Shown here piece by piece: positions 11,554 to 47,115 of a DNA stretch of 64,000 nt. This stretch comes from Bacteroidota bacterium (GTDB lineage Bacteria; Bacteroidota; Ignavibacteria; Kryptoniales; JAKASW01). The translations under genes were made by a program, and so were the position numbers. Under the pieces are notes generated by a model that ran no database searches, was not told where the DNA came from, and was given only the letters and a program-made list of their open reading frames with translations. Location of the stretch: NCBI GenBank assembly GCA_021825585.1, contig JAKAGT010000002.1:186001-250000 (forward strand). The letters are read 5' to 3'. Numbering within the stretch: the stretch's first letter is position 1; each line of letters begins with the position of its first letter.

Positions 11554-13632
11554 TCAAGGCTCGTACCACCAGCGGCACGAATCCGTATATTGTTGGCCAT
11601 TCATCAGGCCTCTCACCAGAACAAAGTTATTTCCGTCTTTGAGTTTGACGTTCTTCCACTCGAAAACCTTAATGTCGTTTCCTTTGCTCCGTCCGATCTC
11701 TTTTCCGTTGACAAGTAGTCCGACCTCGTCCATGTTCGAATAGACTTTTACATTGATGTGCTGCCTTTCGCGCACGCGAAATATCTTGTTTACAAGATGA
11801 ATTACAGGTTCATTGCTCCAATTGGCCTTGTAGAAATAAAACACGTCTTTCTTAGTCTTTCGATCATACGTCACCAACCCTTTATCATTTCTCCCATCTG
11901 TGTCACCTTCTCTCCTTGTGGCAGATGCAAAGTCGAACATGTTCCAAATGAGCTTACACCAAACGTAAGGTCTCGTTTTCAAAACGCTCCAATAGACTTC
12001 ATGGAAATGATCCTGCCATTCTTCGGGATGCCATTTCCCTTTTGGCTCGACAGGTTTGTCGAAACTCTCCTCGTGCATGCGAATACTCCCGCCCGCACCG
12101 TATTCGCTCAATCCTATACATCTGTCAGGATATACAGCGTGCATGGAATCCAACCACGTTGAAATATAGTGCGCCTTCCCGGCGTACCAGCCGAAGTATC
12201 TGTTCCAGGCTATCACGTCTGTGATTGTATCAAACGAGGCAGATATATCCGTAGCAGCTGTAGTAATCCTGTATTTGTCTATCTCCTTAGCCACCTCTTC
12301 AAGTTTCTCCACGTAGTTCGTGGGATCGTCCTGATTGACGCGCAATTCGTTAAATAATCCCCAGAATATTATCGACGGATGATTGTACAGTTGATGGATC
12401 ATTTCCTCAAGCTGCTCAATGCCGTTCTTTTCGAAAGCGGCGGACTTAGTATAGAGGTTTACGAACGGAAGTTCCGACCAAACGATCAAGCCCGAGGAGT
12501 CGCACAGGCTAATGAAATACTGAGACTGCGGATAATGGCACAGTCTGACTGCGTTTGCGCCCAACTCGAGAATGAGCGAGATATCCTCTTCGTGGTCCTC
12601 TTTGGTAAGTGCGTTGCCCCGATCCAAACGATCCTGGTGCCTCGACACCCCATACAGATCCAGGTACTTTCCGTTCAGAAAGAATCCCTTTTGAGGATCG
12701 ACGCGGAAATACCGAAAGCCCAAGGGCTGGCTGATTTCGTCAGTGACCCGACCGTCGGAAAGCAGCTGAACTTTGACATTATAAAGGTACGGATATTTCT
12801 TCCCGTTCCACAAATGAGGTTTTTCAACCACAAAGTCTTGAACTAACGATTCGTTCTGATTAGCTCCCATCTGTGCCTTTGAGCTCTTATGTCCGACCTC
12901 TTTGCCATTTTCATCATATATAATAGTTTTCACAAGGAAGTTCTTTGCCTCGTTATGACCATTTGAGAGTACCGTCCTCACTTCCATCTGTGCGGACTCA
13001 TGAGAAACATTTGATTGAGTGAGATAGACACCGGACGAAGCAAAATCGAGAGGCGAAATACATATCGCGTCGGTTATGATCAGATGAACAGGCCGATAAA
13101 TCCCGCCAAAGATATTAAAATCACCGGTCAAGGGCATGATACCCGAGCGCCATGAGTTATTCACCTCTACGGTAATCAGATTCTCTTTGCCATATTCCAA
13201 ATATGGAGTGATCTCATAGCAGAATGCCGTGTAACCTCCTCTGTGCTCGCCCACAAATTTGTTGTTGATAAAAAGATCGGCGACTAAACTTGCAGCGTCG
13301 AATCTCAAGAAGACCCTCTTCCCATCGAGACTTTCGTCGAAAAATATTTCCTTCCTGTAAACGCCGACTCCCCGATAATAGTCGATCTTGCCTGACTGTA
13401 TGTCATGATTGTTCCATGTATGAGGAAGGTTAACATGTTCTGCCGTCGACTCTTTCCTTCCGCCGTCATAAGAGATCGAGAACTTCCAATCCTTGTCGAT
13501 CAAAGTATCAATTCGATTCTGCGCTTGCGCCGGTTTTAGGAAAACGAACAGGAGAAGAAACAAAAAGAAGACTTCGAACCTTGAGGTTGCAATTGGAATT
13601 AAGTTGAACTCTCTTCTTGTCATCTTAGACAT
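11554..13632 (-). CDS. GH2 glycoside hydrolase, exported (beta-galactosidase-like)
   Basis: The 692-residue GH2 protein has a hydrophobic export signal (FFLFLLLFVFLKPAQAQ), so it acts in the periplasm or at the cell surface. It has the usual sugar-binding, Ig-like and TIM-barrel domains. The acid/base Glu is in WGLFNELRVN and the nucleophile in IGLSEYGAGG. The barrel entry LYGVSRHQDRLDRGNAL resembles beta-galactosidases. There is no Asn-x-Lys glucuronidase motif at the equivalent place (NDKGLVTYDRKTKK instead), so an exo-beta-galactosidase-like role on side chains is more likely than glucuronidase. The C-terminus carries an extra beta domain (VYSNMDEVGLLVNGKEIG). It lies 6 bp downstream of the alpha/alpha-barrel gene. 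Confidence 0.88.
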   Translation of the reverse strand: MSKMTRREFNLIPIATSRFEVFFLFLLLFVFLKPAQAQNRIDTLIDKDWKFSISYDGGRKESTAEHVNLPHTWNNHDIQSGKIDYYRGVGVYRKEIFFDESLDGKRVFLRFDAASLVADLFINNKFVGEHRGGYTAFCYEITPYLEYGKENLITVEVNNSWRSGIMPLTGDFNIFGGIYRPVHLIITDAICISPLDFASSGVYLTQSNVSHESAQMEVRTVLSNGHNEAKNFLVKTIIYDENGKEVGHKSSKAQMGANQNESLVQDFVVEKPHLWNGKKYPYLYNVKVQLLSDGRVTDEISQPLGFRYFRVDPQKGFFLNGKYLDLYGVSRHQDRLDRGNALTKEDHEEDISLILELGANAVRLCHYPQSQYFISLCDSSGLIVWSELPFVNLYTKSAAFEKNGIEQLEEMIHQLYNHPSIIFWGLFNELRVNQDDPTNYVEKLEEVAKEIDKYRITTAATDISASFDTITDVIAWNRYFGWYAGKAHYISTWLDSMHAVYPDRCIGLSEYGAGGSIRMHEESFDKPVEPKGKWHPEEWQDHFHEVYWSVLKTRPYVWCKLIWNMFDFASATRREGDTDGRNDKGLVTYDRKTKKDVFYFYKANWSNEPVIHLVNKIFRVRERQHINVKVYSNMDEVGLLVNGKEIGRSKGNDIKVFEWKNVKLKDGNNFVLVRGLMNGQQYTDSCRWWYEP

Positions 13633-45720: not shown

Positions 45721-45728
45721 AAAATTAA
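45721..45728. repeat. Target-site duplication, left copy
   Basis: The octamer AAAATTAA is adjacent to the left inverted repeat of the IS1595-type element and is repeated exactly at 47108-47115. Eight bases is the duplication length known for this family. Confidence 0.75.
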
Positions 45729-45773
45729 TATGCTTTTCCGGCTTGCGCATAATTATTTTGCTTTCTATATTGC

Positions 45774-46040
45774 ATGATGTTCATCCTACCATTTGTAATT
45801 GAACTAAGCCGATATACCGATCCAAAAGGAACCGAAGATAGACTTGACAAGCTAATCGACAGATTTGAAACCCTCTTGACTGGCACTAACGAGCGGTTAT
45901 CAAAAACGCATCGATTAGTACGTTGGACTCTCATCGTTGCAATTCTAACTCTATTCGTGATAGTTCTTGGTTGGTTACTGCCAATCCACGGTTCAATTTT
46001 AGATATGCTAAAGCGAACACGAGCTGTATCAAAACCATAA
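45774..46040 (+). CDS. Small single-helix membrane protein, passenger of the IS1595-type element
   Basis: The 88-residue protein lies wholly inside the element ends, convergent to the transposase and 45 bp from its 3' end. It has a charged, probably coiled-coil N-terminal half (GTEDRLDKLIDRFETLLTG) and one hydrophobic helix (WTLIVAILTLFVIVLGWLL), followed by a short charged tail. The composition is that of a real protein and not of a shadow frame. Accessory or passenger genes are known in IS1595 elements. I cannot assign a function, and no ribosome site near the ATG pair is convincing. Confidence 0.5.
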   Translation: MMFILPFVIELSRYTDPKGTEDRLDKLIDRFETLLTGTNERLSKTHRLVRWTLIVAILTLFVIVLGWLLPIHGSILDMLKRTRAVSKP

Positions 46041-46085
46041 CAAATAAAATAACATCTACGAGTTTTTCCCACCTTTCCCGTGTCA

Positions 46086-47078
46086 TTATACCTCCCTTGG
46101 ATTCGGATGAATCCAGCCTCTCGCTTTTCCTGTGTGATAAAGTTGATAATAAGTTGGCCCCTCTTTGCTGGTTCCGATTCCCAAAAGCGTGTTGAATGCC
46201 TCGAATATTAGGCGGCGTCTATTGAACCGGAACACATATTCATTGAGATAGGCTTGTAAATGCTTCTTTGAAACTCCGTGATATGTTCCATTAAGGAACG
46301 CCTTGAGATTCCCGAAAACAATATGAATGAGCTGCATTTTCTTAGCGACATCTTCGGAATCTTCACCAGTAACGATTTTATGTTTATAGCCTTTACCGTC
46401 TATTCCTGAATATCCCCGATAACCATCAGTTACTATCGTAGATCCTTTCTCCACGTTGTCCAGAATGAAGCGTTCCAGATAGTTGCTTGCAATGGAGGGA
46501 ATTTTTCTCATTCGTATTCTGCCACCGACCTGTTTATCGGATGTATCTATTATCTCAACGGCAGCAATCACGATTGACTTGTTTCCAGCTCCGCGTCCAC
46601 GCTTGCCGGAGGCCTTTGCACCTATATAAGTTTCGTCAATCTCTACCGTACCCGTAAGTTTCGTGCGGAATGGATTCACCAAAGCAGAACGCAGTTTCAT
46701 TAGAAGCATGTACGTCGTTTCTAATCTCATTCCTAACTGCTGAGAAAGCTGTAAAGCAGAAACCCCAGGTTTAAGCGTCGCCATTAGATATGCAGCATAA
46801 AACCAATGAGTGAGAGGCGTTCTTGTTTTGTGCATGACGGTTCCGGCTGTAACCGTTTGCTGAAAATGATTGGGAAATTCCCAAACTTTTCGAGTTGAAC
46901 AAAATCCGATCGATTTTGTCTTTCCGTCTCTATAATCGACGACTCCGTCCGGCCACCTCATTTCTTTGAGATAATTCCAACATGCTTCCTCGGTTCCGAA
47001 CATGCGATTGAACTCAAATAGTGATTTGGGAAAATTCTGCATATAATGCAAGATGGCTGGATTAGTCCGCATAGTCAA
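46086..47078 (-). CDS. IS1595-family (ISXO2-like) transposase
   Basis: This is a 330-residue DD(N/E)-type transposase of the ISXO2 group. The catalytic core has VEIDETYIGAKASGKRGRGA with the first Asp. It continues with STIVTDGYRGYSGI (second Asp), HIVFGNLKAFLNGTYHGVS and YLNEYVFRFNRR. The N-terminal region normally contains a zinc ribbon with two CxxC knuckles (GF-CPxCG and yxCxxC). Here it reads RWPDGVVDYRDG and GFCSTRKVWEF, so most zinc ligands are gone. The helix-turn-helix part (TPLTHWFYAAYLMATLKPG) is preserved. The reading frame is complete. Confidence 0.88.
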   Translation of the reverse strand: MTMRTNPAILHYMQNFPKSLFEFNRMFGTEEACWNYLKEMRWPDGVVDYRDGKTKSIGFCSTRKVWEFPNHFQQTVTAGTVMHKTRTPLTHWFYAAYLMATLKPGVSALQLSQQLGMRLETTYMLLMKLRSALVNPFRTKLTGTVEIDETYIGAKASGKRGRGAGNKSIVIAAVEIIDTSDKQVGGRIRMRKIPSIASNYLERFILDNVEKGSTIVTDGYRGYSGIDGKGYKHKIVTGEDSEDVAKKMQLIHIVFGNLKAFLNGTYHGVSKKHLQAYLNEYVFRFNRRRLIFEAFNTLLGIGTSKEGPTYYQLYHTGKARGWIHPNPREV

Positions 47079-47107
47079 CGCCTATATGTGTTAAACGGAA
47101 AAGCATA

Positions 47108-47115
47108 AAAATTAA
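47108..47115. repeat. Target-site duplication, right copy
   Basis: This is the exact repeat of 45721-45728 on the other side of the IS1595-type element. Confidence 0.75.

Follow-up and report, generated by a model that had tools for sequence, protein, structure and literature searches.

A compact insertion in a 64,000-nt stretch of a Bacteroidota genome (assembly GCA_021825585.1, contig JAKAGT010000002.1; this whole stretch is called the window) raises the question of what small membrane-protein genes are doing between the ends of an IS1595-type insertion sequence, and whether they serve the element or the cell that carries it. The original prediction, made from the letters of the window, was of a recent insertion carrying one small membrane-protein gene convergent to the transposase. 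In this report, we describe the element, its transposase and its cargo, together with relatives of each in other genomes, and weigh what the cargo may be for.

Element boundaries and insertion

The insertion is a complete IS1595-family element of 1379 bp at 45729-47107, and its features are as follows (window positions; a dot where no strand applies).

45721..45728, strand., target-site duplication AAAATTAA, left copy, 8/8 match to the right copy
45729..45740, + strand, terminal inverted repeat TATGCTTTTCCG at the cargo end, 12/12
45774..46040, + strand, ORF for an 88-aa predicted single-pass membrane protein, reading inward from the element end and convergent to the transposase
45931..46040, strand., tail-to-tail overlap of the 51-aa and 88-aa genes, 110 nt
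45931..46086, - strand, ORF for a 51-aa predicted single-pass membrane protein, its start codon sharing an A with the transposase stop (TAATG)
46086..47078, - strand, IS1595-family transposase, first start TTG at 47078, ATG at 47072
46091..46097, - strand, Shine-Dalgarno-like AGGGAGG seen by eye, 4 nt upstream of the 51-aa start codon
47096..47107, - strand (reversed), terminal inverted repeat TATGCTTTTCCG at the transposase 5' end, 12/12
47108..47115, strand., target-site duplication AAAATTAA, right copy, 8/8 match to the left copy

An alternative parse of the same bases gives a repeat of 10 bp, AAAAATTAAT, and ends of 11 bp; the 8-bp duplication is preferred because it fits the IS1595 family, for which a duplication size of 8 bp is given (PMC8101967). 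Chance would be expected to supply such a structure of ends plus duplication within 2.5 kb either side about 6e-6 times under equal base frequencies, a figure somewhat low for the real site, which is AT-rich. The host genome holds one full-length copy of the element; a DNA search of that genome found one further relative (70%, contig C18), and a protein search added a partial relative on contig C73, with two weak matches. The predicted insertion, with perfect 12-bp ends, a perfect 8-bp duplication and an intact transposase, was correct in coordinates and anatomy, and calling it recent is fair, given the perfect ends and duplication and the single full-length copy in the genome. A sigma-70-like match lying across the duplication and the element end (45725-45753) was discarded as being at chance level (4 sites against 3.1 expected in the scanned region).

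Transposase and family assignment

The transposase frame is open for 330 codons from TTG 47078 and for 328 from ATG 47072. Its product covers positions 1-153 of the 153 in PF12762, the DDE_Tnp_IS1595 catalytic domain (E 1.2e-34), and matches NF033547 at 189.8 bits (E 5.6e-56; cut-off 75), so that the element has the catalytic domain, the 8-bp duplication and the terminal inverted repeats of an IS1595-family member. ISAcr1 and other named plasmid IS1595 elements share this transposase family (39.5% identity across 94% of the query), and all 261 of the 261 matching plasmid records lie below 60% identity to the window transposase. In a tree of 27 rows (L022 and L023 left out), six transposase-bearing elements, namely those of the window and of loci L007, L033, L066, L067 and L072, form one branch at 100/100.

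This clade has lost the zinc-ribbon ligands found elsewhere in the tree. Zinc-ribbon CxxC motifs number zero in all five clade members that hold the region (the window, L007, L033, L067 and L072) and two in each of the 21 other rows that hold it, three rows of the comparison being without the region. Against Zn_ribbon_IS1595 the window transposase scores 19.3 bits, under the cut-off of 25.4. The N-terminal segment has kept its length across the clade, which points to loss of the ligands and not to deletion. An N-terminal zinc finger is described for every IS1595 group except IS1016 (PMC8101967); because its CxxC pairs are absent, the element is placed inside the IS1595 family and outside all non-IS1016 subgroups. 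The IS1016 group, taken here from its description in PMC8101967, is likewise without the N-terminal zinc finger, whereas in the window the N-terminal region is full-length and it is the CxxC pairs that have gone.

Cargo of the element and of its clade

Between its ends the element holds two small ORFs with relatives in other elements, and thereby the extra genes that mark a transporter IS (tIS). Transporter IS of the IS1595 family are reportedly the subject of work by Siguier, Gagnevin and Chandler in 2009. Since passenger-bearing IS1595 elements are a named class under that term (PMC3129680, PMC8496243), the earlier view that a membrane passenger is unexpected in an insertion sequence was too strong. 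As these sources describe tIS, the window element has in common with them an IS1595 transposase, an 8-bp duplication and passenger genes between the ends; compared with the same descriptions, it differs in carrying two small membrane genes that converge and overlap, one of which starts on the transposase stop. Among the papers listed for IS1595 passengers, small membrane proteins, translational coupling and toxin-antitoxin systems, no title or abstract opening describes such a pair. At the level of those sources, passenger genes in IS1595 are already known and the overlapping pair is a new variant at most.

The reading that we favour, with roughly even confidence, is that of an IS1595 transporter IS in which the transposase is followed by a 3' module of two convergent, overlapping single-pass membrane genes, both of them host-directed passengers. 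Ribosomes reaching the end of the transposase would restart to make the 51-aa protein, and transcripts that run into the element from its end would supply the 88-aa protein. Both small proteins would reside in the host membrane, and their action would be directed at the host cell, not at transposition.

Predicted membrane-protein cargo is present in all six elements of the clade and is mostly of different kinds.

Window, 88 aa and 51 aa, 3' of the transposase
L066, 66 aa and 50 aa, convergent, 3' of the transposase
L007, 41-aa ORF, starting 8 nt before the transposase end
L033, 110 aa and then a 96-aa ORF, 5' of the transposase
L067, two antisense ORFs, one of 169 aa 5' of the transposase and an HNH-like one of 96 aa 3' of it
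L072, 227 aa, 5', overlapping the transposase start

Both ends and the duplication were found in the window, L033 and L067; L007, L066 and L072 are each without one end, so that their cargo is assigned by position only. Hydrophobicity was judged by KD19 with a threshold of 1.9 of our own choosing, which is reached by 14 of the 48 long ORFs of the window and exceeded by the membrane cargo of all six elements. Among the other elements with ORFs listed (n=10), two (L008 and L013) have an ORF with KD19 >2, in a comparison that is small and hand-picked and whose filter missed two membrane ORFs inside the clade. The listing covered 13 elements chosen from those with ends and was restricted to ORFs of >=60 aa, the longest being taken where they overlapped; because it passed over the 51-aa ORF of the window and the 110-aa ORF of L033, it may miss membrane ORFs elsewhere too. 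Four elements with ends and duplication (L016, L017, L019 and L025; 1053 to 1175 bp) have room for little or no cargo; such cargo-free members are distant from the clade, at ~38 to 41% identity, and none was seen inside it.

Two of the cargo-bearing relatives have features of their own. The window's own genome contains a second such IS1595 element on contig C18 (L033:810-2452, 1643 bp, duplication TTCCACTA), in which the start of the 96-aa ORF overlaps the stop of the 110-aa membrane ORF (ATGA), both lying upstream of the transposase. The 96-aa product has what we take to be a resemblance to Cas2/SinR-like proteins; this identity was rejected, there being no Pfam or NCBIfam match and no support from PDB matches, the best of which (E 2.7e-5) is to 26 residues of a designed alphaRep chain. 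The element at L067:2030-3923 (genome G011; 1894 bp, duplication GATATCTA) carries an antisense protein with two membrane segments and an antisense HNH-like ORF. PADLOC matches of the HNH-like ORF to ZorE2 (E 1.8e-4) and of the L033 110-aa protein to a 2TM effector (E 0.033) are too weak for a defence call. Similar-looking ORFs were seen by eye in the Myxococcota IS1595 elements L013 and L015, the L015 ORF giving a sub-threshold match to GIY-YIG (E 0.0059).

Close relatives of the window element indicate where its cargo changes. The window and L007 are sisters (100/100) with transposases 89% identical, and their DNA similarity stops 12 nt past the transposase stop; the DNA match of the window to the more distant L066 extends 88 nt into the 51-aa gene. 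L007 and L066 lie in the same genome (G411, the assembly behind L007, gives places and scores identical to those of G002, the source of L066). The 41-aa ORF of L007 was considered as a homologue of the 51-, 50- or 66-aa proteins and rejected (z 0.8 against the 51-aa protein). As the similarity boundary falls at about the transposase stop, modules seem to have been exchanged there, and a swap of 3' modules near this stop seems the simplest reading of the window, L007 and L066 sequences; alternatively, the 3' end of L007 being missing, a deletion or second insertion there could mimic a swap.

The same cargo could instead serve the element by regulating transposition: the 51-aa protein would tether or limit at the membrane the transposase made along with it, and the opposing transcript would damp the transposase message. 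Such a role would fit a small-ORF start codon that overlaps the transposase stop in the window and lies no more than 8 nt from it in L066 and L007, as well as membrane cargo in six of six clade elements; yet in L033, L067 and L072 the cargo stands 5' of the transposase, its kind varies, the L007 protein is unrelated to the 51-aa protein, and the family has cargo-free members, so that we regard regulation as unlikely. Host-directed action is preferred because the family includes cargo-free members and the membrane cargo of close sisters is a different one, and passengers unrelated to transposition are favoured because the cargo differs in kind among sister elements. We judge host-directed passengers to be about three times likelier than transposition regulators.

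A more elaborate version would make the transposase stop of this zinc-ribbon-less lineage a docking point for exchangeable membrane cassettes, with the pair in the window working as one unit, either as an addiction module or in membrane control of transposition. We hold this to be rather improbable and retain the host-directed passenger pair as the working explanation.

The small membrane ORFs and their relatives

Each of the two small ORFs encodes one strong hydrophobic segment, with KD19 values of 2.86 (88 aa) and 2.79 (51 aa). Single-sequence AlphaFold modelling gives one long helix over residues 20-86 for the 88-aa protein (mean pLDDT 72), and a single-sequence model of the 51-aa protein is one confident helix (pLDDT 93.8). 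An 88-codon ORF convergent to the transposase, with one membrane segment, is thus present as predicted; its proposed coiled coil is not proven. The idea of a membrane passenger gene also stands, although as a single-gene account it was incomplete, the second, 51-aa membrane gene coupled to the transposase having been missed.

A similar pair is found in the same genus in L066 (genome G002, contig C38), where 220 transposase residues, 64% identical to those of the window, precede the contig end. After this transposase comes a 50-aa ORF in the same place as the window 51-aa ORF (E 5.4e-4); the two proteins match at z 11, a score equalled by 0 of 2000 shuffles, and at z 5.6 (0/5000) with the membrane segment fixed in place. 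Opposite the 50-aa ORF, and overlapping it by 89 nt, is a 66-aa membrane ORF, giving the same convergent arrangement as in the window. The direct match between the 88-aa and 66-aa proteins is not significant (141/2000 and 310/5000, and 967/5000 with the membrane segment fixed). A profile built from these two proteins found a third member, a 71-aa ORF on contig C209 of genome G003 (L098; E 1.4e-8), in which an IS-like end starts 48 nt before the 71-aa start codon. To this protein the 66-aa protein is unmistakably related (z 21.6, 0/5000) and the 88-aa protein moderately so (z 4.8, 5/5000, weakening to 41/5000 with the membrane segment fixed). The original prediction had proposed a search for homologues of the 88-aa protein in related elements; this search yields relatives beside IS1595-type ends in G002 (L066) and G003 (L098), the protein's own match being moderate to the latter and not significant to the former.

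In the stretch of L098 that was read no transposase relative was seen, the sole transposase match in G003 being on another contig; no 8-bp duplication was seen in it by eye, and a six-frame reading showed no 51-aa relative. L098:1408-1682 may be a transposase-less mini-element of ~275 bp with only the 71-aa gene, one IS-like end and one degenerate end. Further matches to the 88-aa family in genomes G014 and G016 were rejected because of internal stops (two TGA and one TAG) and because, at two of the three profile matches, the opposite strand reads as an open, unrelated-looking protein.

Overlap on this scale raises the question of whether the 51-aa gene is the sole real one and the 88-aa frame a shadow of it, hydrophobic because many of the 51-aa-tail codons opposite end in A. 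The non-significant direct 88/66 match would agree with this, as would a start codon with no Shine-Dalgarno seen before it by eye and a protein with no family match above cut-off. Null models in which the 51-aa protein was kept and the rest recoded or shuffled argue against it: they gave an antisense ORF of >=88 aa in 50/20000 cases, and one equal to the 88-aa ORF in both length and hydrophobicity in 0/20000. The corresponding null for L066 (50-aa protein kept) gave 701/20000 as long and 2/20000 as long and as hydrophobic; moreover, the 66-aa protein has its unmistakable homologue in L098, a locus whose six-frame reading showed no 51-aa relative. In the reverse null, with the antisense protein kept, the 51-aa frame was open in 616/20000 and as hydrophobic in 26/20000 for the window, and the 50-aa frame in 3824/20000 and 353/20000, respectively, for L066. 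Homologues and null models together indicate that the 51-aa and 88-aa frames are probably both genes, the 51-aa more securely, and a shadow appears quite improbable.

Libraries offer no function for either protein. Neither has a Pfam or NCBIfam match above cut-off; sub-threshold Pfam matches are to SUR7 (E 0.11) and TraL (E 0.12) for the 88-aa protein and to DUF4389 (E 0.023) for the 51-aa protein, and PHROGs gave three matches to the former, none better than E 0.17, and none to the latter. Plasmid searches with the 88-, 51-, 66- and 50-aa proteins returned no match. A phage search with the 71-aa protein returned one match at E 0.9, taken as chance, and scans of viral contigs with the small proteins gave nothing convincing, the single match of one scan spanning 28 residues (L087).

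Bacillus pairs such as txpA/RatA have a tail-to-tail overlap geometry similar to that of the window. An addiction pair of this type I toxin-antitoxin kind, with a small hydrophobic toxin and an opposing transcript across its 3' end, could account for a small hydrophobic protein in a 110-nt convergent overlap, but we consider it quite improbable, as the likeness is one of geometry only, the opposing strand would itself code for a separate protein family that has relatives, L098 contains a member of the 88-aa family but showed no relative of the 51-aa protein, and no Pfam or NCBIfam match rises above cut-off. Host-directed membrane passengers remain the reading that we carry forward.

Distribution among genomes

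In class-wide samples, strong matches to the 88-aa family were found in 4 of 361 genomes (G000, G002, G003 and G453) and to the 51-aa family in 3 of 341 (G000, G002 and G453). Three further genomes with 88-aa-family matches at E 6.5e-4 to 9.9e-4 only, and six further genomes with 51-aa-family matches at E 5.6e-4 to 0.0075 only, were taken as chance; most of the weak class-wide matches lie inside much longer frames or contain a stop. Used alone, the 88-aa sequence matched 1 of 395 genomes of the phylum, the window's own. In G453, which belongs to another family than the window genome, the match lies at a contig end; it shares 97.5% identity with the window along 161 bp and is cut short within the 88-aa gene. 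A transposase search of G453 gave no relative. So near-identical a cargo sequence suggests movement between families, the alternative being a misbinned or misassembled piece in a draft genome. At L109 (G453:C320, ~12890-13053) the piece of window cargo adjoins an ORF that by eye resembles a DNA cytosine methyltransferase.

Significance

The elements compared here suggest that a minimal insertion sequence can carry membrane cargo and that close sisters can differ in it, the switch falling at the transposase stop. Genes so short and overlapping are easily missed in annotation. If the proteins are active, each jump would bring the host a membrane function, and the 1.4-kb element would be a very small system for cargo capture and overlapping genes.
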